Below are positions 6,821-19,490 of a DNA stretch of 64,000 nucleotides, piece by piece. This stretch comes from Novipirellula herctigrandis. Its GTDB lineage: Bacteria > Planctomycetota > Planctomycetia > Pirellulales > Pirellulaceae. Location: the NCBI GenBank assembly GCA_007859835.1, contig SJPJ01000001.1, positions 1,074,453 through 1,138,452 on the forward strand. Reading direction: 5' to 3'. The translations under genes were made by a program, and so were the position numbers. The notes under the pieces were generated by a model. It had not been told where the DNA came from, did no database searches, and was given only the letters and a program-made list of their open reading frames with translations. Positions within the stretch are counted from its first letter, which is position 1; each line of letters starts with the position of its first letter.

Positions 6821-7649
6821 AGTTTAAGCTGTCGCTGATCCCGATCGATATCGGATCGGACTCGCGACGGCTTGGCCAAACGTTTGACTCAGGAAACTCG
6901 GCTGCAAGCTGTTCCGCCAACCGCTGCATCGCAAAGCGTTCGCTTTGGTAGTGGCCAATCAGAATCAAACTGATTCCAAGCGACTCGGCTTCAAGGCAAG
7001 TGTGAAACGTCGCTTCGCCCGTGACCATGGTATCGCAACCTTTTCGATGGGCCGCTGCCAAGAAACTACCACCGCTACCGCACGCGAATGCACATCGGCG
7101 GACCGGCCTGTTGAACGAACCAACACATCGCCAATGATCGCCGGATACCAGCTTTGATACACGCGAAGCAAACTCCGACAACGACTCCTTCTCGACGAGA
7201 GTCCCGTAGCGACCGCTGCCCAAATTAGTCGGATCTGGGTTCGCTGGATTGCCGTCGAGCTCTAGATCGACCAACGGACGAACATCACAAAGTCCCAATT
7301 GGTCAGCCCATTGTTGGTTGATCCCTGCGGCTGCCGAATCGAATGCAGTGTGAGCGCTATAAATTGCAACGCCCGCTCGGATCAATCGCAGCAGCATTGA
7401 GCCCGCAATGGTATCGGACGTGATCCGGGAAAACGGCTTAAAGGGCAGCGGATGATGTGTGACAACCATATGGACGTTTTCGTCAACGGCTTCATCGACC
7501 ACCAAAGGAGAGATCGTCAGACACGTCATAATACGGCTAGCCTCGCATTTGCGATCACCGACTAGCAAACCGACGTTATCCCAGGACTCAGCCAATCGCA
7601 GAGGCGCGATCTCGGCCAAGCATTGACAAACCCGATCCACGCTTACCAT
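6819..7649 (-). CDS. Nif3-family dinuclear metal-centre protein (YbgI-like)
   Basis: A 276-residue member of the Nif3/DUF34 family (GTP cyclohydrolase I type 2-like), cytoplasmic hexameric proteins with a two-metal site of uncertain reaction. The start MVSVDRVCQCLAEIAPLRLAESWDNVGLLVGD matches the family's opening. Metal ligands are visible in VVTHHPLPF (paired His), the SAHTAFDSAAAGIN segment (His and Asp), and IGHYQSERFAM near the C-terminus (His, Glu). The glycine-rich GSGRYGTL and ACGSGGSFL match its middle part, and MVTGEATFHT is the usual DxxxTGE-like stretch. Its length equals the short family form without an inserted PII-like domain. It is convergent with glgB and upstream of, but not overlapping, infC. 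Confidence 0.9.
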   Translation of the reverse strand: MVSVDRVCQCLAEIAPLRLAESWDNVGLLVGDRKCEASRIMTCLTISPLVVDEAVDENVHMVVTHHPLPFKPFSRITSDTIAGSMLLRLIRAGVAIYSAHTAFDSAAAGINQQWADQLGLCDVRPLVDLELDGNPANPDPTNLGSGRYGTLVEKESLSEFASRVSKLVSGDHWRCVGSFNRPVRRCAFACGSGGSFLAAAHRKGCDTMVTGEATFHTCLEAESLGISLILIGHYQSERFAMQRLAEQLAAEFPESNVWPSRRESDPISIGISDSLN

Positions 7650-7789
7650 TGAATTTCCCCATTGTCGCCCCTTCGCTCGGCGCGTGGGCGTAGCCCGACC
7701 TTAAACGATCATTGCGACGCAAAGGCGACCGGACTAGCCGACCATCGGACCGATTCAAAACCTATCCGCGACTAAATCAACCTCGTCAC

Positions 7790-8856: not shown

Positions 8857-8930
8857 GGGCAATTAGCTCAGTTGGTTAGAGCGCCACGTTGACATCGTGG
8901 AGGTCACAGATTCGAGTTCTGTATTGCCCA
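8857..8930 (+). tRNA. tRNA-Val, anticodon GAC
   Basis: A full cloverleaf: acceptor stem GGGCAAT (8857-8863) with ATTGCCC (8923-8929) and discriminator A; D arm GCTC/GAGC; anticodon stem CCACG/CGTGG around loop TTGACAT, giving anticodon GAC (Val); T arm ACAGA/TCTGT around TTCGAGT. No CCA is encoded. The 3' end from 8919 is the attachment site of the integrative element that follows, so the original downstream terminator is now at 16566. The mature tRNA sequence is intact. Confidence 0.96.
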
Positions 8931-10296
8931 TTAGATAGTGGTTTCCCTTGCTATCCTGAACTATAAAAACACCGCTTTTCGCGGTGTTTTTTTCATTTCC
9001 AGCCGAATCACCCAGCCCCCCAATAGTGCCAAATAGACCCGAAATGCAACCGCCAGTGCAACCGCGGTTGCATCCCAAATCGTCGGTCTCCGGCTCGGGA
9101 TCGCTCACCAGTGGCGCGGCGGCCACGGTTTGCCCTTTTGGGTCCGATGCCGCTTGGAACGCTTCGTCCGTTGCCATCGCGTAGGACTTCATCGCCACGG
9201 GGACGGAATTGCCGATCCACGAAACCACGTCCTTGGCTGGATAGCGAGCCAACAATTCTGTTTCGCGACTCGCTCGCAAGTTTTGAAACAACTTCGGCCA
9301 CGGGGTGATTCCGGCCCGTTTCAGAATCAACAGAAAGGTGGATCGTAGATTTTGGGTCGATTGTCGGTAGCGGGTGACCACGAATTCCGCGCTTCCGTCA
9401 TCGGGGGCCGCGTCCCATGCTGCTTCCAAATACGGGCGCAACTCGGGAAAGATCGGGCAAACGCGAACACCGCCAGCCGCATGGTGCTCCGTCTTGCTAG
9501 CATGGATCGTCATGCGACCGGCCGGCAAATCGACGTCCGACCACCGCAACGCGACCAACTCACTCGGGCAACGCAAGCCACCGTAGCGAGCCAACGCAAG
9601 AATCGTCCGCCACTCGCTATCGGGGCAATGCGCCATGCAACTTTCGATGACGGGGGCAGGTACGAAATGTTGCCGCTTCGCATTTCCCTGAATCGAACTA
9701 GGCAACTTTGCGAAAGGGTCCGCCGGCATGTAGCCTCGTTCTACCGCTTCTAAGAAAAACTGTTTCGCGGTTGCCGTTCGACGTCTCACAGTATCTTCGG
9801 CCATCCACTTTCGATTCTTATCCCGGCGGTTGCCTTTCGTTTTTAGCCAAACTCGCCACCGCTTCGCCTCAGCCGGTGTAATGTCACGCAACAGTTTCTT
9901 GCGACCGAAAAACGTAAGCAAGTTTGCTTTTGCTTTTGTGAAACTCTCTTTCGTCGATGCCTTCACGTCTTGGCGCTCGCCAATGTATTCGTCGATCCAC
10001 TTTTCCAGCGTCAAAACTTTCGCAACACGTTTCGCGACCGATTCACACAAACCGCACCTTGCCAATTTATTTCGCAAGTCGTCATCGATACCACTAAGCC
10101 AATCGGCCGTTGCCATTTCCGGCGGACGTTTTTTCTTCACTTGATCTAGCAGGTGTTCGACGTGATCCTTCACTTCCTGCGCTCGCCACTCGGGAACGTC
10201 CCCAAGCCAGATTGTCCGGTTTCGCTTTTCCGCGTCCCGAAACTGTAAGCGGTAGCCCTTGCGGCCGCGGTCATTTTCTAAGCGTAGACTTGCCAT
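8863..10296 (-). CDS. Tyrosine recombinase (integrase) reading antisense into the tRNA
   Basis: Catalyses site-specific integration and excision at tRNA-Val. ATG 10296 has a good AAGGTGAT ribosome-binding site, so the open frame further upstream is not needed; the product is 477 residues. An N-terminal SAM-like DNA-binding domain (about 75-175) precedes the catalytic domain: R242 in YGGLRCPSELVALRW, Lys in ASKTEHH, RxxR-like QNLRASRETEL (the usual first His of box II is Asn), WIGNS, and nucleophile Y372 in MKSYAMATDE. This box pattern is common in planctomycete integrases. Beyond about 385 the sequence is a Gly/Cys-rich tail containing arm repeats and a terminator. The last 22 residues are the antisense of the tRNA (MGNTELESVTSTM), ending at a TAA inside the acceptor stem. 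Confidence 0.93.
   Translation of the reverse strand: MASLRLENDRGRKGYRLQFRDAEKRNRTIWLGDVPEWRAQEVKDHVEHLLDQVKKKRPPEMATADWLSGIDDDLRNKLARCGLCESVAKRVAKVLTLEKWIDEYIGERQDVKASTKESFTKAKANLLTFFGRKKLLRDITPAEAKRWRVWLKTKGNRRDKNRKWMAEDTVRRRTATAKQFFLEAVERGYMPADPFAKLPSSIQGNAKRQHFVPAPVIESCMAHCPDSEWRTILALARYGGLRCPSELVALRWSDVDLPAGRMTIHASKTEHHAAGGVRVCPIFPELRPYLEAAWDAAPDDGSAEFVVTRYRQSTQNLRSTFLLILKRAGITPWPKLFQNLRASRETELLARYPAKDVVSWIGNSVPVAMKSYAMATDEAFQAASDPKGQTVAAAPLVSDPEPETDDLGCNRGCTGGCISGLFGTIGGLGDSAGNEKNTAKSGVFIVQDSKGNHYLMGNTELESVTSTMSTWRSNQLS
8919..8931 (+). repeat. attL core (tRNA-Val 3' end)
   Basis: CTGTATTGCCCAT, identical to 16549-16561. Including flanking bases, 8911-8930 matches 16541-16560 at 18 of 20 positions; the two mismatches are in the T-loop part, consistent with one copy deriving from the host and the other from the element. 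Confidence 0.9.
8965..8993. terminator. Bidirectional hairpin terminator inside the integrase 3' end
   Basis: An AAAAACACCGC / GCGGTGTTTTTTT hairpin with a short loop, flanked by A and T runs so that it can act on both strands. It follows the tRNA by 34 bp and can end its transcript in place of the displaced native terminator. The integrase frame reads straight through it. Confidence 0.75.
9045..9072. repeat. Left arm-type repeats, candidate integrase sites
   Basis: TGCAACCGCC at 9045 and TGCAACCGCG at 9057 are spaced 12 bp apart, and an inverted GCGGTTGCA overlaps at 9064-9072. The same decamer pair with the same 12-bp spacing occurs near the right end (16466, 16478). Repeats flanking both att cores at about 80-125 bp are what arm-binding sites of a lambda-type integrase look like. 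Confidence 0.65.
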
Positions 10297-10409
10297 TGAA
10301 TCACCTTTCAACGTCACCAAAGGAGAGAAAGAGCAACGGCGGGCCGGTGGTGAAGCCGGTTTTCGTCTGTACGGGACTAGCCGTTGCGCTTTCGAGTGTA
10401 ACAAACTTT

Positions 10410-10832
10410 CTATTCGGATGCTCCGGCCGGCTCGGGCGAAACAATCGTCACCATTGGGGACCGGCCACGGCGCGATTCAACGCGGACCAAACCACGTTCG
10501 GCCATCTTTCGCAATATTCGCCTTGCTGTTTTGGGGTGGACGGACAATTCCGCAAGGACGGTGGGTGACAACTTTAGGGGGTTTCGACGTTGGTAGCCGG
10601 CCGCGTACCACAGCAACACCGCCACCGCTTCGGCTTGTCGGCCACAGCCGGGAACCAACTTGAACCAAGCCAGCGGGATCGGACCACGGATGAAGCGTTC
10701 ACCATGTCCGTGTCTCGGGAGTGGCACCGATGCCGGCTTAGCCTTGCCTTTCGCGTCGATCCGTCTTTCACCTTGAACGGTGAACAATGCCGCCACGTCA
10801 TCGGGGCCGGCCGTGTAGGTTTCCAAGTCCAT
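10410..10832 (-). CDS. Winged-helix DNA-binding protein, candidate initiator or regulator
   Basis: A 140-residue soluble protein starting at ATG 10832. After an N-terminal part with FIRGPIPLAWFKLVPG and AVAVLLWYAAG, a winged helix occupies about 85-135: LSPTVLAELSVHPKTARRIL (helix-turn-helix), then KMAERGLVRVESRRG and PMVTIV (wing). Such single-domain proteins next to the integrase recur in small planctomycete elements as far as I know, but its family has no name I can give. It stands beside the iteron array at 10903-10982, which makes it the natural candidate for the iteron-binding protein. A transcription repressor of the element would look the same. Confidence 0.75.
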   Translation of the reverse strand: MDLETYTAGPDDVAALFTVQGERRIDAKGKAKPASVPLPRHGHGERFIRGPIPLAWFKLVPGCGRQAEAVAVLLWYAAGYQRRNPLKLSPTVLAELSVHPKTARRILRKMAERGLVRVESRRGRSPMVTIVSPEPAGASE

Positions 10833-10837
10833 AGGGT

Positions 10838-10893
10838 TACTTACTTAATAATAAGATTCTTAAGGAGATACTTAATAAGACTCTAAGTAGATA
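10838..10893. other. AT-rich imperfect direct repeats, candidate unwinding element
   Basis: Within GC-rich surroundings this short tract is markedly A+T-rich and contains the related blocks ACTTAATAATAAGATTCT and ACTTAATAAGACTCTAAG, separated by AAGGAGAT. Next to iterons this is the usual form of a DNA-unwinding element. It also holds the promoter region of the polymerase-distal genes, so a promoter role is possible. Confidence 0.5.
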
Positions 10894-10902
10894 GGGTACG
10901 GG

Positions 10903-10982
10903 TGGGACACAACGAACCTTTCACGGGACACAGCGAACCCAATTTGGGACACAGCCGACCTTTCAACGGCTCGCTATGTCCC
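10903..10982. repeat. Iteron-like array: three direct copies and one inverted copy
   Basis: Copies of GGGACACAGCGAACC-type sequence start at 10903 (one change), 10925 (exact) and 10946 (one change, followed by TTTCAAC as copy one is followed by TTTCAC). Start spacing is 22 and 21 bp, about two helical turns. A fourth copy lies inverted at 10972-10982 (CGCTATGTCCC) and overlaps the polymerase stop codon. Regular phasing next to an AT-rich tract suggests a replication origin or an operator. Confidence 0.7.
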
Positions 10983-12713
10983 ATGTTTGCTTTCGGCTTC
11001 GGATGCTAAACGGAACACCTTGTCCCACATCTCCTGCCCTCGGTCGTCGTCCATGTATCGCGCCGGATAACTAACAATCTTCGCGTCTGATTCCAAATCG
11101 AAACCGTCCAGCACAATCCGGCCGGCTTCTCGCATGATCGTTTGGGCTTGGATCACCGCTTCGTCAATTTGTCCCGTGTCGGCTTCGATCAAAATTGCAT
11201 CGTGAACGGGACAACAAATGGTGATGCCGGCTTCACTCGCCATCGAACACGCCAGCCGCAACATTTCAGCGCCGTTCGCTTGCATCGGAAAATTGGCCAG
11301 TGAACGCGGATTGTCACCGCCGATGGTATGGATCGTCCAACCGAACACGGTTTGCAATTTCCCACCCAACATCGCCGCGTCAACTTGCGATTGGGACCAA
11401 CGCCAAAACACGGGGAACGTCTCACGATGCCTGCGCAACAAGTTTCGAGCGAAAGCCACGGGCTTGTTCAACTTTGCCGCCAAACCGTATTCGCTCATAC
11501 CGTACTGGGTGGCCAACATGCAAACCTTATACGCCGATCTTTCGGCCGGATGACTCTGTTTCGTTGCTGACGGTGGGACGGCTCCGGCCATCTTCGCGAA
11601 TTCCAAATAGGGATCACCGGAAGCGTACGCTTGCCCTAGTGCGGGATCGCTGGACAACGCGGCCGCTATGCCAAGTTCCTGTTGCGACCAATCGACATAG
11701 GCAATGGAACGTCCGACGGCCGGCTTGATAAGTCCTCGGAGCCATACCGACGGACCAAATATGAATTTATTGTTGCTCGGTTGATTGCGGCCGGATCGAC
11801 TAGCGAAAGGACTTAGCATCGCGCGGTTGCGACCGTCCGATCCGACGGCCAACTTCTCCAACTTCATTTCCGATAGCGAGTGACGAAGTTCACGTAGGGG
11901 CGAAACTTGCGGATATGCTTTCGCCTGTTGCCGAAACGTACCATCGTCCAACGCCAGTCGTCCGCTATCGGTGTTTGGCCACGGGATACGGTTTCGGATT
12001 AGATAGTCCGCGAATCGATCGTGCCTGAACGTCTCACCATCGAACACACCAAAGGATTCGTCTACCGATGCAATCAATTGCCGCTTGATCGTCAACCAGT
12101 GCCGACGGAACATAGCCAGCGTTTCCATATCGATGGGGACGCCTGCGGTTTCCATCGACGAAACCGCCCGCATGTACCGGCCCCGCAAGATCGCTCGGGG
12201 GTAGTCGATTGCCAAATTCATCACGGGCAACAGCCTATCCACTGCGTCAACATCACTTTGGCAGTAGTCCAGTAGCGCCGACATTTCGGCGGCCGTGTAC
12301 GGTCCGCCACGGATAGCCAAGTCCCGCATTTCCTGTTTCTCACTCGCCAACATCGAATCGAAACCAAAGTGAGACAAACAACCGAGTAGGCCCCGGCCTG
12401 CGGGTAAGGAAATGCCGTTCAACAAATTACGAAACTCGCAGTACAAATCGAGTACACGAATCGGAACGGGCCAACCAAGCGACAGAAAACAATTCCATTC
12501 GGCGGATGAAAAGTAAGCGACGAATAGCGAGCGCTCGCTAACATCAAACGGCGGCCGCTTCATCGTCGTTAATTCGTCCATCCCGATTCGGAGTAGCTTG
12601 CGAGAATGAAACTCACGGGCCACCAAGCAAGCGACAATGGGCCGCTCGCCAGGTGGTTGTGAGAATTCAAAGTCGATAAGCCAAACCGAATCAAATCGAT
12701 TTAGCCAATCCAT
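10974..12713 (-). CDS. Family A DNA polymerase with 3'-5' exonuclease-like domain
   Basis: A 579-residue PolA-type polymerase without the 5' nuclease domain, of the size found in phages and plasmids. The exonuclease-like domain has exo I WLIDFEF near the N-terminus and an exo III-like YCQSDVDAVDRLL around 168-180. The polymerase motifs are present: motif A YVDWSQQELGIAAALS, motif B with SAYKVCMLATQYGM, and motif C CCPVHDAILIEA, where the usual VHDE is VHDA. Motif A supplies one catalytic Asp and motif C the other, so it is probably active. Its ATG overlaps the upstream stop by one base (TAATG), indicating translational coupling. Its location beside an iteron array implies it replicates the excised element; repair is an alternative. 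Confidence 0.92.
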   Translation of the reverse strand: MDWLNRFDSVWLIDFEFSQPPGERPIVACLVAREFHSRKLLRIGMDELTTMKRPPFDVSERSLFVAYFSSAEWNCFLSLGWPVPIRVLDLYCEFRNLLNGISLPAGRGLLGCLSHFGFDSMLASEKQEMRDLAIRGGPYTAAEMSALLDYCQSDVDAVDRLLPVMNLAIDYPRAILRGRYMRAVSSMETAGVPIDMETLAMFRRHWLTIKRQLIASVDESFGVFDGETFRHDRFADYLIRNRIPWPNTDSGRLALDDGTFRQQAKAYPQVSPLRELRHSLSEMKLEKLAVGSDGRNRAMLSPFASRSGRNQPSNNKFIFGPSVWLRGLIKPAVGRSIAYVDWSQQELGIAAALSSDPALGQAYASGDPYLEFAKMAGAVPPSATKQSHPAERSAYKVCMLATQYGMSEYGLAAKLNKPVAFARNLLRRHRETFPVFWRWSQSQVDAAMLGGKLQTVFGWTIHTIGGDNPRSLANFPMQANGAEMLRLACSMASEAGITICCPVHDAILIEADTGQIDEAVIQAQTIMREAGRIVLDGFDLESDAKIVSYPARYMDDDRGQEMWDKVFRLASEAESKHGT

Positions 12714-13408
12714 TACGCTGCCCCAAACAACTCTTGCAAGTAGGGATGATTCATCGAATCAATAAACCGTGTCTTGAACGCAAGTTCCAAGATTTCACGC
12801 AAAGACAATTCCGGCCACTCGGGCTCTGGCAAGTTTCCTGTGGCTTCAAACACCGCGTAGGAGCCGGCGTTCATATCGGCTTGAACGCGGACCCAACTTT
12901 TCACCGCAAGTTCCTGCGCTTCCAACATCGACGTATGCCAATCCATTGGCCGGCCGTTTGGGTCCGGTAACTTTGCCTGCCATAGAAAAGTGGTGCCGTG
13001 TCGATTCACCGCCGTACACAAGCGAACCAGCGAAATGAAGTCCGGTAGCGATGACCACAACGCGGGCGCAACCAAATAGGTTTCGCGGTTCGTCTTATCT
13101 TCGATAATGGCTGTATCGATCCTATACGCCGGCTCGGGATGCACACGGCAAAATTCCATCTTATCGGGCTTACCACACTTCACTGTGACAAGTTTACGCT
13201 TGACGCCAATCGCGCCGGCGGCCGTGTTCGGATTCAGCCGCAACGCGGCCGGGTCGAATGGGTCCGTTGTCGCAGCATCCGAAACCATCGAGGACATTTT
13301 TGCCCCCGACGGTTCGTCGGTTTGCGCTTCGAGTCCAGGCAATTCGTTAGGCGCTTTCGCATTGACTTTCTTTCGTACACGGCGTTCAGGTTTGTTATCA
13401 TTGTTCAT
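12713..13408 (-). CDS. Unknown protein coupled to the element's DNA polymerase
   Basis: A 231-residue soluble protein from ATG 13408, with GAGGAAA as ribosome-binding site. The first 80 residues are basic and disordered (RRVRKKVNAK); the remainder is globular, with KRKLVTVKCGKPDKMEFCRV and RETYLVAPALW, and a C-terminal helix REILELAFKTRFIDSMNHPY. Two Cys are present but no metal motif. I do not recognise a family. Because it overlaps the polymerase start by one base and the upstream gene by 11 bases, it is probably part of the replication module, for instance as a DNA-binding or accessory factor, which is inference only. Confidence 0.75.
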   Translation of the reverse strand: MNNDNKPERRVRKKVNAKAPNELPGLEAQTDEPSGAKMSSMVSDAATTDPFDPAALRLNPNTAAGAIGVKRKLVTVKCGKPDKMEFCRVHPEPAYRIDTAIIEDKTNRETYLVAPALWSSLPDFISLVRLCTAVNRHGTTFLWQAKLPDPNGRPMDWHTSMLEAQELAVKSWVRVQADMNAGSYAVFEATGNLPEPEWPELSLREILELAFKTRFIDSMNHPYLQELFGAA

Positions 13409-13631
13409 AGTGAATTTCCTCTTGCGGCCGCGTATCGCTGAATCCGATGCCGGCCGCTTTTGTTTTGGTTTCTAGTTGGTGGCTACAACCCCTTGGGTTT
13501 CGAGCCTGTTTGCGTAACGGTGGCAAGCCAATGGTTGCCCGAAAACACGGATCGCAAACGCTAGCGAATCCGTAGGACGTCCGGTGTTGGTGGTGGACGG
13601 CCACGTTGCTGTGGCAGAATTCGCATAGCAT
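13398..13631 (-). CDS. Small zinc-ribbon protein
   Basis: A 77-residue protein with CEFCHSN and CDPCF (two CxxC pairs about 22 residues apart), a likely zinc ribbon, followed by a basic tail. ATG 13631 overlaps the preceding gene's TGA (TGATG), and the end overlaps the next gene by 11 bases. The arrangement suggests co-translation within the element's operon. Function unknown; nucleic-acid binding is likely from the fold. Confidence 0.65.
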   Translation of the reverse strand: MLCEFCHSNVAVHHQHRTSYGFASVCDPCFRATIGLPPLRKQARNPRGCSHQLETKTKAAGIGFSDTRPQEEIHYEQ

Positions 13632-13882
13632 CACGCACCCCGCGAATTCATAGCCAAGTGTGCAATCACCGCATGGGGATCAAACAACACCTTGCGACCA
13701 ACGCGGATGACGGGCAATTCACCGTCCCGCAACATCGTGTCCAGCTTCGGCACCGATACGCCGATCACTTGGGACAACTCGTGACGAGTGAGCAACCGAC
13801 GGCGGTTTGCCAGTCGATCCGCGACACGTTCCGCCACCGCGTCCGCAAGCGTTTCAAGTTCAACGGGAGTGAAACTATCCAC
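13631..13882 (-). CDS. Excisionase-like helix-turn-helix protein
   Basis: An 83-residue protein of the MerR/excisionase (HTH_17) type: LLTRHELSQVIGVSVPKLDT gives the helix-turn-helix, then MLRDGELPVIRVGRKVLFDP, the typical wing with a final helix. The start is chosen as GTG 13882 because AGGAGGG lies six bases upstream; the frame is open further up but without such a signal. In integrative elements these proteins act as recombination directionality factors or regulators. It overlaps the upstream small gene by 8 bases (GTGGATAG). Confidence 0.8.
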   Translation of the reverse strand: MDSFTPVELETLADAVAERVADRLANRRRLLTRHELSQVIGVSVPKLDTMLRDGELPVIRVGRKVLFDPHAVIAHLAMNSRGA

Positions 13883-14060
13883 GTTCGCCCTCCTGCCGAT
13901 CATCGACGGGGGAGTGAACGTTTTGTTCCGTTTCACGTCGGGCAGCTCGGGCGTCAAGGCTCAGCCGGTAAAGGCGTCGTAACAGTTCCCGCTCACGGCG
14001 GGCGTTGGCAATTTGCTGGGCCACCATTTCGGGTGGTGGCAGGGTTTCCGAAAGTTTCAT
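13875..14060 (-). CDS. Small helical protein of the element
   Basis: From ATG 14060, 61 residues: LPPPEMVAQQIANARRERELL and RRLYRLSLDARAARRETEQN form a continuous, highly charged amphipathic helix likely to be a coiled coil. The 8-base overlap with the HTH gene supports it being translated. No family or function recognised. Confidence 0.55.
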   Translation of the reverse strand: MKLSETLPPPEMVAQQIANARRERELLRRLYRLSLDARAARRETEQNVHSPVDDRQEGERG

Positions 14061-14137
14061 TTCGTCGGCTCCAATCGGGGAATGAATCAACACACCCACA
14101 ATTTGCCGCCCTCATTGAAAGAGCGAAAACAGGATTT

Positions 14138-15595
14138 CTATTTTCCTTTTATCCTTGTTTCCTTATTTGCTCTCTTGCCCTTGCCGCGACCATCAAACGG
14201 CCAAGGTAAACCGAAATTTCGCCTGCCCCACGCCCGCCGCAACGCATCACGCATCGAACTAGCTTCTATCGGTGTCCAATCATTTGTAGCTGATACGGTT
14301 TCGAGCCATTTTGCCAAATCGGGATAGCTCGGGTGTTTTTTACTGTCCACACCAAACCGATCAAGCAAAGCGTCGTCGCGTTCGTCGCGCAGTTCCTGAG
14401 GGCCTTTGGAATTTTTACTCCGGACCGCCTTCGGGGCGTGTGGGATACTCGCTTTCGCGGCGACTGGAATACTCGCCTCTGGGTTCTCACCTAGCCAGAA
14501 GCGAAAACAGCGAACAATTTCCTCTCGCAACTCCACATCGATCTGATCGAAAATATATGGGGTTGCTTCAAAGTTGGGAGGCTCCCCAATATCGTTCACG
14601 TCATATTCAATTGTTCTTTCATAGCCGTTGGCCAATTCAATCCGTGACTTAAAAAGTTCGGTTGCCCCAGTATCTATCGAAACAATTTGTAAGGGAGTAC
14701 CTGAAATATTAGCTATGCTACGGAGCAACTCGAATATTTTGGCTTGGTTTGGCGCTGTTGTCGTGCACTGATGAATTATTTCCTTAGCGATAATACTTGG
14801 TTCAACATTGTTGATTGTCTCGAGCGTTTCGTCCCCAAGCCGGCCAATTGCTTCATCAACCGGCCATTGCTCAACCTCTTTGTCATAAAGCCCGGTAGTT
14901 GCGATTCCCCATCGCACGACGCAACGGGCGGCATCATCCGATGTCGCCGTCAACGAACAAAGCCCGGCTTTGGACGCTGCGAAGATCAACCGCGCATTGG
15001 CAGATTCGATTGTGTCAATCAGTTCGAGATCATCTTGGTACTTTTCTCGTATAGTGTTTCGAGCGTGCCCCAGTCGGTAAACAAATCCCTCAATCCCTTC
15101 TCGGCGGTCCGTCGCGCCGCAACCTTCACGCAAACCGTGCAATGCCTGCTCGCGTTTGTCGATAAGCTGTTCGGTCTTTTCTATCTGCCAAAGTAGCTCT
15201 GACCGGACACACTGCATTGGAAAGCAAAGAGAATGCAAATCTTCGGGAACCACCGTTTGGTGAATACTCCACCACTCCTTCAGCTCTGGTTCCGTTAGCC
15301 AACGCAAAACGGGGCGATGACGTGAGTTCAGGGATGGAATCGCAGATTGCACGATCGCAGCAATACGACCACGAATCATAATTGCGAAGTGTTCTATAGA
15401 TCCTGATGCGTCCATAGTGGAATAGTCAGCGAATGAAAGGCCGCGACAATCTACTGGGTCTATTTCGACGTAGCCTTCGTTTGTTTGACAAACAAACTTA
15501 CGTTTGAAACGTGAATGAAACGTTTCATCAGGATCCTCTAAGAAGTCTAAATTTCGTCGCGTCAAACCCTCGATACTCTGCCAGTAATCTGACAT
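14138..15595 (-). CDS. Large unknown protein, first gene of the element's operon
   Basis: A 485-residue soluble protein starting at ATG 15595 with AAAGGA as ribosome-binding site. I recognise no family. The N-terminal half is alpha-helical with a charged stretch (LLWQIEKTEQLIDKREQALH) that may be coiled coil; around 190-330 are mixed strands and helices (SANARLIFAASKAGLCSLTA); the last 80 residues are very basic (DALRRAWGRRNFGLPWPFDG, ending KRANKETRIKGK), suggesting nucleic acid contact. It lies furthest from the integrase, a position often used for cargo. Codon use looks more AT-rich than in the polymerase gene, so it may have been acquired separately. Its role could be defence, replication or regulation; nothing in the sequence decides. 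Confidence 0.75.
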   Translation of the reverse strand: MSDYWQSIEGLTRRNLDFLEDPDETFHSRFKRKFVCQTNEGYVEIDPVDCRGLSFADYSTMDASGSIEHFAIMIRGRIAAIVQSAIPSLNSRHRPVLRWLTEPELKEWWSIHQTVVPEDLHSLCFPMQCVRSELLWQIEKTEQLIDKREQALHGLREGCGATDRREGIEGFVYRLGHARNTIREKYQDDLELIDTIESANARLIFAASKAGLCSLTATSDDAARCVVRWGIATTGLYDKEVEQWPVDEAIGRLGDETLETINNVEPSIIAKEIIHQCTTTAPNQAKIFELLRSIANISGTPLQIVSIDTGATELFKSRIELANGYERTIEYDVNDIGEPPNFEATPYIFDQIDVELREEIVRCFRFWLGENPEASIPVAAKASIPHAPKAVRSKNSKGPQELRDERDDALLDRFGVDSKKHPSYPDLAKWLETVSATNDWTPIEASSMRDALRRAWGRRNFGLPWPFDGRGKGKRANKETRIKGK

Positions 15596-16369
15596 TGCCG
15601 TTCCTTTCGTTCGTAGCGGGCCGATTCAACGGCCACGGCCGAAAGGTTACGCCAGTAGCCAGTTGAATCGCACGACGTTTGCAGAACGCCTACCCAAAAC
15701 CATCGGGGTCAGCCGATGGGGTTAGATTCGCGAGTGACTAGCCCGCGGCGTTCATTGTCTACACTGCATAACTCCAGTGCAACCACTATCCTTGCAGCTT
15801 CATTTTGCCGCACTAGTAGACGGAATCGGCTAAAGGGCAGTCGTGGCGTGTCGGTCACCAGATTTTTCCGCCCCCCCTGCTATGTCGATCCGATCGCTCA
15901 TTTTGCGGATTCTTGCGGGCGCGGTCGCACGGTCTACGCAGGCACCCGCCCCCAGAAAACAACCACCTCGGGGTTAGACGTGTCGTCGTCGTAGTCTAGT
16001 TTTTTCTGGTTCGAGCCAGTGGGAGGACTTCGGAAAGCCACCCGCAACGAGCGCCACAGCCGCCCGGGAGGACCCGCCAAAGGTAGGGTATACCGATCTG
16101 TCAATTTTGCGGAAGCGTAACCAGGCGGGCATGCGGTCATGGTGTCGACCCCGCCCCCACATTCTCACGCCCCCCCCCCACCGTTCGTGTGCGTCAATAC
16201 TACATTTTGTGACTTTTCCACTTGGAGCTCCGGACCCTTTCGGTAGAAAGTAGTACCTACACCCTACCACGCTATCCCCAGTCGTAACTTGATTAGACGG
16301 CCCCAGCTTGCCGTGTAACACCGTTTCCGACCGATGCGATTGATCGTGCGGAAACGCTTAGACAACGCC
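15596..16369. other. Gene-free right segment of the element
   Basis: About 770 bp without a credible gene. Open frames here are short and have no start signals. The stretch has C-runs (at 15871-15877 and 16168-16181 approximately), several CCGCCC-type patches and an ACAACCAC-type motif. It probably contains the operon promoter upstream of 15595 and the attP-side regulatory DNA; I see no defined hairpin or structured RNA. Confidence 0.5.
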
Positions 16370-16465
16370 TCAGCGATTGCGTACCGCGGTCCCATCATCG
16401 CGGCTACCATGTTCCGTTTCCCATTGACGAATGACGCCCAACAACTCGGGTGAAACGGGGTGCAA

Positions 16466-16487
16466 TGCAACCGCCGATGCAACCGCC
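16466..16487. repeat. Right arm-type repeats
   Basis: TGCAACCGCC at 16466-16475 and 16478-16487, spaced by 12 bp exactly as at the left end (9045, 9057). They lie about 62-83 bp inside the attR core. Confidence 0.65.
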
Positions 16488-16548
16488 GAAACATCACCTT
16501 GCGGTTTCGCCCCGCAATTCACAGTGTTTTCACCGCTTGTTTCGATTC

Positions 16549-16561
16549 CTGTATTGCCCAT
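16549..16561 (+). repeat. attR core
   Basis: CTGTATTGCCCAT, the second copy of the tRNA-Val 3' end sequence. The bases left of it differ from the tRNA at two positions, and the bases right of it continue into the original tRNA terminator. Confidence 0.9.
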
Positions 16562-18293: not shown

Positions 18294-19490
18294 ATGTGGA
18301 CAATGCAGGTCATTCCGATTTGCTGCGGAATCCGTTCAATTTGCCGCAGAATCCGTTCAATTTGCCGCAGAATCCGTTCAATTTGCCGCAGAATCCATTC
18401 AACGGCGCCGATGGTTATTGCCCTGTTCTTCGGCACCGCTTGCGGGATCAGTGCTTGCGGGATCACCGCTTTCGGGCAAACCACAGGTTTCGGGCAAACC
18501 ACGAACCACGAACCGGTTGCTACTGGGATATGGCAGAGCGGAATGTTTCGCTGGCAGGTCAGCCCGCCACTTTTGGCGATAGACCAGGATCGACTTCCCC
18601 AATCCACTGAACATCCATGGTTGGCAATCAAAGACCCAAGCATTGTTCGTTTCGATGGGCGATGGCACCTGTTCTGCACATTGCGTAAAGCAAAGCAAGG
18701 AGACGGACGAATCCGAATTGGCTATCTGTCATTTGAGCAGTGGTCGGACGCCAAAGATGCCGATTGGACCGTTCTAAGTTTGACGATGGGATATCACGGG
18801 GCTCCGCAAATTTTCTATTTCGAGCCTGATAAGAAGTGGTATCTCGTTTATCAAGCCGAAGATGCGACACGAGATTTAAAGTACGGCCCCTGTTTTTCGA
18901 CGAACGACGATATTTCGGATCCGCACAAATGGACGTTACCCGAACCACTTTATGTCGTGAAGGAAGGTACGAAAGCGGGACTTGATTTTTGGGTTATCTG
19001 TGATCACTCAAAGGCACACCTGTTCTTCACTACGCTCAATGGACAAATGTGGCGTGCAGAAACGTCGATCAATCAGTTTCCCAATAAAGGATGGACGGAC
19101 CCGCAAATAGTGTTGCGAGCAGATATTTTCGAGGCGAGCCATACATATGCGTTGCGCGGTCACGATAAATTCCTGACGGTCGTCGAAGCTCAAGCAGGCA
19201 AGCGACGTTACTTCAAAGGCTTTGTCGCCAATAGGCTTGACGGCACATGGAGTCCGTTAGCAGCGAGTCAGGAAAAACCACTGGTTTCGACCAAGAACGT
19301 CGTCAACCAGCGCACGTCGTGGGCAACGTCATACAGCCACGGTGAATTAATTCGCACCGGATACAACCAAAAGCTTGAGGTCGATCCCGATGATCTTACG
19401 TTGCTGTTCCAAGGCGCCAACGACGAAGAGTATCAACGTGGGAACTACGGCCAAATTCCATGGCGACTCGGCATGCTGAAACTGAAATAG
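18294..19490 (+). CDS. Secreted GH62/GH43-like propeller glycosidase
   Basis: A 398-residue frame whose ATG directly follows the stop of the FMN-binding gene. A signal peptide beginning at Met40 (ATG 18411; MVIALFFGTACGISACGITA) indicates the true start may be there; residues 1-39 consist mostly of an IRSICRR heptad encoded by tandem repeats. The mature enzyme looks like a five-bladed beta propeller: AIKDPSIVRFDGRWHLFCT (catalytic base Asp in KDPS), YHGAPQIFYFEPDKKWYLVY, GLDFWVICDHSKAHLFFTTL, and FEASHTYAL. The KDP-GRWH and AP-Q-WYL-YQ pattern is that of family GH62 alpha-L-arabinofuranosidases. Arabinose removal from side chains is the likely activity, although related families share the fold. 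Confidence 0.75.
   Translation: MWTMQVIPICCGIRSICRRIRSICRRIRSICRRIHSTAPMVIALFFGTACGISACGITAFGQTTGFGQTTNHEPVATGIWQSGMFRWQVSPPLLAIDQDRLPQSTEHPWLAIKDPSIVRFDGRWHLFCTLRKAKQGDGRIRIGYLSFEQWSDAKDADWTVLSLTMGYHGAPQIFYFEPDKKWYLVYQAEDATRDLKYGPCFSTNDDISDPHKWTLPEPLYVVKEGTKAGLDFWVICDHSKAHLFFTTLNGQMWRAETSINQFPNKGWTDPQIVLRADIFEASHTYALRGHDKFLTVVEAQAGKRRYFKGFVANRLDGTWSPLAASQEKPLVSTKNVVNQRTSWATSYSHGELIRTGYNQKLEVDPDDLTLLFQGANDEEYQRGNYGQIPWRLGMLKLK
18322..18405 (+). repeat. 21-bp tandem repeat, four copies
   Basis: Four 21-bp units (18322, 18343, 18364, 18385) containing GCAGAATCCGTTCAATTT; the two central units are identical and the outer ones have one to a few changes. They encode the heptad IRSICRR just ahead of the signal peptide. 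Smaller duplications follow at once: GCTTGCGGGATCA twice and TTCGGGCAAACCAC twice (18439-18500). Confidence 0.9.

Follow-up and report, generated by a model that had tools for sequence, protein, structure and literature searches.

The stretch of Novipirellula herctigrandis DNA analysed here, referred to as the window, comprises 64,000 nucleotides of contig SJPJ01000001.1 (positions 1,074,453 to 1,138,452) from a genome of 9.5 Mb. Beside tRNA-Val(gac), the sole tRNA found in the window by ARAGORN, it contains a block of seven genes, all open and all on the minus strand. This block is a real, bounded element. Its ends are marked by two copies of an attachment core that are identical at 19 of 21 positions, with a score of 15 versus 12 for the runner-up match in the stretch scanned, and the distance between the copies gives an element size of 7,630 bp. 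The initial annotation placed the block between two tRNA-Val repeats; a repeat is indeed present at each end, but the right one is a 21-bp tRNA fragment and not a second tRNA gene. The features, in window coordinates, are the following.

8857..8930, plus strand: tRNA-Val(gac), the host target gene, intact (ARAGORN)
8863..10404, minus strand: tyrosine integrase (PF00589 5.7e-7, phrog_1 1.4e-31), its frame ending inside the tRNA antisense
8911..8931, plus strand: attachment core, left copy (last 20 bases of the tRNA 3' end plus one base)
10410..10832, minus strand: winged-helix protein (wH), predicted initiator (structure model and winged-helix matches)
10835..10896, minus strand: AT-rich stretch with TCTTATTA-like repeats, possible unwinding element
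10897..10905, minus strand: CACCCGTAC motif, between the 21-bp repeats and the AT-rich stretch
about 10904..10966, minus strand: three 21-bp direct repeats (iteron-like)
10974..12713, minus strand: family A DNA polymerase (PolA) with predicted N-terminal 3'-5' exonuclease (PF00476 6.9e-21)
12713..13408, minus strand: u231, predicted OB-fold-like single-stranded DNA-binding partner of the polymerase
13398..13634, minus strand: small protein with two CxxC pairs in its translation, with relatives at other loci
13631..13957, minus strand: HTH_17 / AlpA- or Xis-like regulator (PF12728 1.3e-5, just below the cut-off; phrog_66 excisionase 3e-4)
14138..15595, minus strand: u485, function-less by searches (Pfam, PHROGs, PADLOC), its place held by other genes in relatives
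16370..16561, minus strand: open frame, would-be integrase C-terminal tail in the circle
16541..16561, plus strand: attachment core, right copy, repeating the tRNA-Val 3' end

Within the integrase frame, the ATG of MASLRLEN lies at 10296. About 0.8 kb between u485 and the tail frame (15596–16369) holds no convincing gene and may harbour promoters or further sites. The integrase, the helix-turn-helix (HTH)/excisionase-like protein, the family A polymerase, the winged helix and the origin-like array named in the initial annotation were all located. Its further claim, that capsid, terminase, relaxase and conjugation genes are absent, holds apart from one weak match: among ten open reading frames (ORFs) scanned with Pfam and PHROGs there is no match to a capsid family or to the relaxase and conjugation families of integrative conjugative or mobilizable elements, but the HTH protein has a weak small-terminase match (phrog_57, E 0.0017), ranked under its HTH and excisionase matches, which is the sole packaging-type match in these ORFs.

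Attachment repeats above threshold were found in 10 loci, of which L122 (14-bp repeat, 13.7 kb spacing) and L126 (17-bp repeat, 15.5 kb spacing) were dropped as doubtful; two pairs of identical loci (L033 and L057, L037 and L082) were each counted once, and no repeat above threshold was found in L031 and L056. The initial annotation had proposed, as a test, a second genome with the polymerase between such repeats. Repeats of tRNA ends flank the same polymerase at seven further loci, indicating that the arrangement is not a chance cluster. Seven of the eight complete elements span 7.4–9.8 kb, and they occupy several tRNAs; L044, for example, is integrated between 47-bp tRNA-Gln repeats. The target sites of relatives are occupied variably. 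In G001, tRNA-Val(gac) adjoins a decayed copy consisting of a broken integrase (92% DNA identity) and a wH scrap, without PolA. In G002, another congener, no integrase match stands beside tRNA-Val(gac), its own copy being at tRNA-Val(cac), a site that has no integrase match beside it in the window's genome. No integrase match adjoins tRNA-Val(gac) in G013, G015 and G056, and the window's right flank stands beside the tRNA, as an exact empty junction, in none of these five relatives.

A PolA search gave some match in 79 of 147 genomes, the window's own included. Element-type PolA is full or nearly full at 18 places in 16 genomes (51–87% identical outside the window) and occurs as shorter pieces in six further genomes; the remaining matches are 22–35% identical and are taken for host Pol I and other polymerases. 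At 17 of 24 fetched places u231, PolA and wH occur together, including L051, where PolA is in pieces; the other seven are contig ends, fragments or places with no wH match. A scan of genome contigs yielded 193 relatives, of which 80 were kept. Many relatives are contigs of metagenome-assembled genomes (MAGs), possibly misbinned. Non-MAG records include Rhodopirellula, Paludisphaera, Limnohabitans, Hydrogenophaga, Dechloromonas, Rhodoferax, Caenispirillum, Neobacillus mesonae and Mycobacterium asiaticum, the last with two loci; the cassette recurs in such records from Planctomycetota, Pseudomonadota, Actinomycetota and Bacillota. The gene u231 was detected in 37 of 397 genomes of the class (E 1e-8), a scattered distribution consistent with a mobile element. 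No account of the gene set was found in the Creative Commons-licensed PubMed Central (PMC) literature, the scope of that search, which left subscription papers aside.

Clustering of ORFs across 101 loci (100 besides the window, with a few near-duplicates among them) recovered PolA in 101, u231 in 95 and wH in 92. A tyrosine integrase is present in 59 loci and a serine recombinase in 6 and, once frames overlapping the core genes by position are set aside, no further gene cluster exceeds 11 loci. The wH gene is always downstream of PolA, no more than about 300 bp away in all cases but L122, where it lies at +2.3 kb, and the integrase is upstream in 24 ORFs and downstream in 36. Since wH stays beside PolA whichever side the integrase occupies, it belongs with the polymerase and not with the integrase. 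The conserved unit is therefore not PolA alone but u231, PolA, the repeats with AT-rich DNA, and the winged helix, in that order.

Residues D341, R392/K396 and D505 of PolA, which we take to be the catalytic residues of a family A polymerase, are invariant in 18 of 18 sequences. The N-terminal domain looks exonuclease-like (predicted 3'-5'); searching solved structures by sequence with this domain and with u231 gave nothing usable. In five loci (L044, L045, L046, L047 and L049) PolA has an insertion of some 110–160 residues relative to the window's protein, falling between residues 224 and 227 of the latter. The site resembles the thumb tip and presumably matches the place of the thioredoxin-binding loop of T7 polymerase; in L044, the single insertion scanned, there is no extra Pfam match. 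The prediction for u231 is OB-like, with gp32 of T4 and RB69 as best, weak matches; its VIA and Foldseek matches also include toxin B subunits and polymerase epsilon, read as a shared barrel or chance. Pfam, PHROGs and PADLOC assigned u231 no function, none of the 120 homologues listed of 213 has a Pfam domain, and the phage (50,697 records) and plasmid (72,556) collections contain no match to it at E 0.01. All PolA matches listed from these collections are less than 30% identical, and those listed from phages are 23–26% identical. For wH there are sub-threshold Pfam matches only and no PHROG, and its structure model (made from A5; predicted local distance difference test score 87.8) matches winged-helix proteins. 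In L040, L072 and L079 a tandem pair of u231-like genes lies upstream of PolA.

The DNA between PolA and wH has a recurrent organization. Many of 17 such gaps inspected as printed sequence contain two to four direct repeats of 20–23 bp followed by an AT-rich stretch, and the repeat sequence differs from element to element. Regions from 70 bases before to 150 bases after the PolA stop were tested against 100 dinucleotide shuffles each, with stretches inside PolA as control. Tandem repeats at p ≤ 0.02 were found in 45 of 98 regions, with a period of 21–23 in 42 of the 45, as opposed to 2 of 98 controls; the other 53 regions are above p 0.02. Dyads with arms of at least 6 average 0.82 versus 0.24 in the control, and the AT-richest 40-nt segment exceeds its control in 91 of 100. 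For the CACCCGTAC motif, CCCGTAC was counted in 28 of 98 loci versus 2 of 98 controls; TCTTATT occurs in 23 versus 1. In 38 elements picked for having repeats, repeat similarity correlates with wH identity after control for PolA identity (partial r 0.21, p 0.0005) and with PolA given wH (0.16, p 0.0025); for u231 the partial r is 0.07 (p 0.10). The anatomy of an iteron plasmid, tandem iterons by AT-rich DNA together with an initiator-type gene, is present. The region is read as an iteron-type origin bound by wH, with an operator as the rival reading, and wH is predicted to be an iteron-binding initiator of replication. The proposal of the initial annotation that the element replicates on its own gains support from the recurrence of this anatomy across loci.

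A second property of the family concerns the integrase. Of the 35 loci where it lies downstream, the seven elements with attachment repeats and a tRNA-adjacent integrase (the window, L032, L057, L058, L059, L082 and L046) were compared for its frame. In all seven the frame enters the attachment core and stops 10–22 codons on in the tRNA antisense, and in all seven joining of the ends into a circle leaves it open for 50–90 codons from the core. Five of the tails are related: with just seven sequences searched, E values run from 2e-4 to 2e-41 for 7 of the 10 pairs among the five; the window tail matches that of L032 (E 4e-9) and none of the other tails, and those of L082 and L046 give weak matches only. 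Against L031 the window tail gives nothing better than E 0.039. The L058–L059 pair has a third-position excess (15, 9, 22; nonsynonymous divergence 0.20, synonymous 0.45), and three more distant pairs have no clear excess. The tail is conserved although it lies 7–12 kb from the integrase gene when integrated, which points to life as a circle. Tails resembling tRNA antisense, identified by a loose regular expression, occur in 70 of the best 120 of 2,514 integrase homologues; 12 of these 120 have at least 485 residues, and five (P0149, P0177, P0186, P0196 and P0213) have a free-type tail as judged by eye. A profile of the five tails matches one of the 120, P0149, below E 0.01 (0.0015). The PF00589 match (residues 256–385) lies entirely ahead of the core, so that integration leaves the catalytic domain whole. 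According to a review, integrases whose gene is broken by their own action occur in archaea alone (PMC8371274). The archaeal suicidal integrases of the SSV1 type described there likewise have the attachment site within the integrase gene, so that integration alters the enzyme; in the present elements, however, the catalytic domain stays on one side and the C-terminal tail alone is exchanged. Such an exchange would give an integrase a simple switch for distinguishing the free from the integrated state of its DNA. At L033 (5098–5379) and L057 (6490–6549) a second, partial u231 and a second integrase-tail fragment lie near an intact element, a pattern that tandem decay of an older copy might leave.

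Exact terminal overlaps are present in 1 of 45 whole contigs and in 3 of 23 whole IMG/VR contigs, two sets that overlap, and identify three closed circles from metagenomes. L144 (8,291 bp) encodes an integrase, u231, PolA, an HNH protein and both terminase subunits, and the gene in its wH position does not cluster with wH. L186 (10,743 bp) encodes an integrase, u231, PolA, a large terminase, a capsid protein and a portal, without a wH match. L195 (9,078 bp), in which two ORFs were scanned, encodes an integrase, u231 and wH, and its PolA is distant (28% identical to that of L144). Packaging-type genes among the relatives comprise large or small terminase, portal, head protease and capsid; IMG/VR selects virus hallmarks, and such genes are over-represented there. 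Three families, phrog_15, phrog_38 and phrog_9, account for the large terminases, a diversity suggestive of repeated acquisition. The initial annotation named as a sign against its proposal the occurrence of structural genes in relatives bounded by tRNA repeats; this is seen in one integrated element, L044 (capsid, PF05065 4e-26), while the window's copy shows no such gene beyond the weak phrog_57 match. Together with the packaging genes of L144 and L186, this finding pulls the family towards phage satellites rather than refuting the suggested plasmid-like or satellite-like family, whose relatives are indeed found among satellite-like circles.

Several known systems share parts of this organization. 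In SCCmec a family A polymerase and an OB-fold partner start DNA primer-free (PMC10061031). These PolA–SSB (single-stranded DNA-binding protein) primases of SCCmec and SCC-like elements (CcPol-MP; PMC10061031, PMC7581432) resemble the present pair in that a family A polymerase gene adjoins a small predicted-OB-like gene in an integrative element with no classical primase. The published pairs, however, mostly accompany large serine recombinases, whereas here a tyrosine recombinase acts at tRNAs; moreover, the SSB-like gene here precedes PolA, and the repeats and winged helix follow it. The 17 pairs analysed in that work are all from Bacillota and all have a helicase (PMC10061031), while no helicase family was matched in the ten window ORFs or stands out as a further cluster beyond the core-overlapping frames; the pair is therefore proposed to work like a PolA–SSB primase, not to be one. 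TV-Pol, the wider setting of the window's polymerase, likewise comprises family A polymerases of mobile elements with RxxxK and two palm aspartates, some beside integrases, but, compared by description only, these carry an all-helical domain at the N-terminus, end in a D5 helicase or stand alone, in contrast to the exonuclease-like N-terminus and u231 found here (PMC2579912). The TV-Pol set includes a Rhodopirellula baltica entry (PMC2579912), which may or may not belong to the window's family. The PICMI phage satellites also have few genes, with an integrase, an AlpA-type regulator and a priming enzyme, but use a DUF3987/DUF5906 primase and Fis, which have no Pfam match here and for which PolA and u231 stand in (PMC10803314). 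Pipolins are integrative elements with their own DNA polymerase as well, of family B rather than family A (PMC7385651).

Taken together, we consider it likely that the 7.6-kb integrative element at tRNA-Val forms an excised circle copied by its own PolA, with u231 as predicted single-stranded DNA-binding partner, the winged-helix protein as predicted initiator and the repeats as likely origin. Most tRNA islands and satellites are thought to rely on host or helper polymerases and AEP- or DnaG-type primases. The present element is best read as a minimal integrative replicon, satellite-like or plasmid-like, that carries a PolA–SSB-type module and in which replication, priming and transfer are inferred. 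The integrase, probably with the HTH protein, would excise the element; in the circle its frame would cross the rejoined core into a tail of 50–90 residues, which integration would swap for tRNA antisense, so that the integrase protein would differ between the free and integrated states. The wH protein would bind the 21-bp repeats and unwind the AT-rich DNA beside them; new strands would then be extended, and perhaps also started, by PolA on a template held by u231. The circle would reach new cells in the particles of a helper phage or as a plasmid-like passenger.

An alternative is that the repeats are operators, with wH an autorepressor or excision factor and PolA–u231 repairing or filling in DNA without replication from the site. 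The winged-helix fold is common to many regulators (CRP, LexA, MarR and CodY are among the matches), the repeats lie just upstream of the wH start, and there is precedent for excision factors of the winged-helix type that oligomerise on DNA (PMC11963761). This explanation is nevertheless judged unlikely: wH keeps to PolA and not to the integrase when the latter is on the other side, and an AT-rich stretch with TCTTATT and the CACCCGTAC motif exceeds an operator's needs. That the element is the remnant of a larger prophage stripped of structural genes is highly improbable, the decayed copy at the same tRNA in the congener G001 notwithstanding, given that the seven genes in the window are all open, that compact elements, most of them 7.4–9.8 kb, recur at several tRNAs, and that u231 and PolA have the remote relation to phage proteins described above. 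The candidate was rejected on the last of these grounds, the plasmid collection included.

Far closer to an evenly balanced question is whether the element is a true phage satellite, which would stay silent until infection by a helper phage and then be excised, amplified and packaged in helper particles. The relatives with packaging genes, among them the closed circles L144 (8.3 kb) and L186 (10.7 kb), argue for it, as does the plan of integrase, AlpA-like protein and priming enzyme known from PICMIs (PMC10803314); a site-specific integrase with a tRNA or core-gene attachment site, a feature of phage satellites, is also present. Against it, the window's own element has no packaging family beyond the weak phrog_57 match, four other complete elements, the partly scanned L032, L033, L037 and L046, gave a single weak small-terminase-like match (L037, E 0.0057), and the bias of IMG/VR inflates packaging genes. 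The integrative replicon described above is probably a member of a class of self-copying phage hitchhikers that is widespread and has attracted little notice. More tentatively, and with doubt slightly outweighing belief, we propose an unnamed cross-phylum class of integrative replicons in which PolA and an OB-fold partner would self-start from an iteron origin under a winged-helix initiator, a class that would include bare tRNA islands, circles with terminase genes and satellites that form capsids, and in which an integrase C-terminal tail present only in the free state would act as a sensor of integration. A compact set of PolA, SSB-like protein, winged helix and origin-like DNA in four phyla would widen the PolA–SSB idea beyond SCC elements, and the cassette would constitute a small testable replisome.

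Individual loci differ in their accessory genes. At both M. asiaticum loci (L116 and L127) a serine recombinase replaces the tyrosine integrase, and in L127 a small-terminase gene follows PolA. The tRNA-Arg element L037 carries a SIR2-like protein (PADLOC 1.5e-7) and a protein that is ankyrin-like by eye, cargo that may serve in phage defence. A RelE/ParE-type toxin gene (phrog_1213 2.7e-12) lies within L046 at 7471–7761, and an ERCC4-type nuclease gene (phrog_3490 4e-17) immediately follows wH in L061 at 12277–12789. Outside the element, the window contains direct repeats with 21-bp spacing at 18318–18401, at the start of the ORF at 18294.

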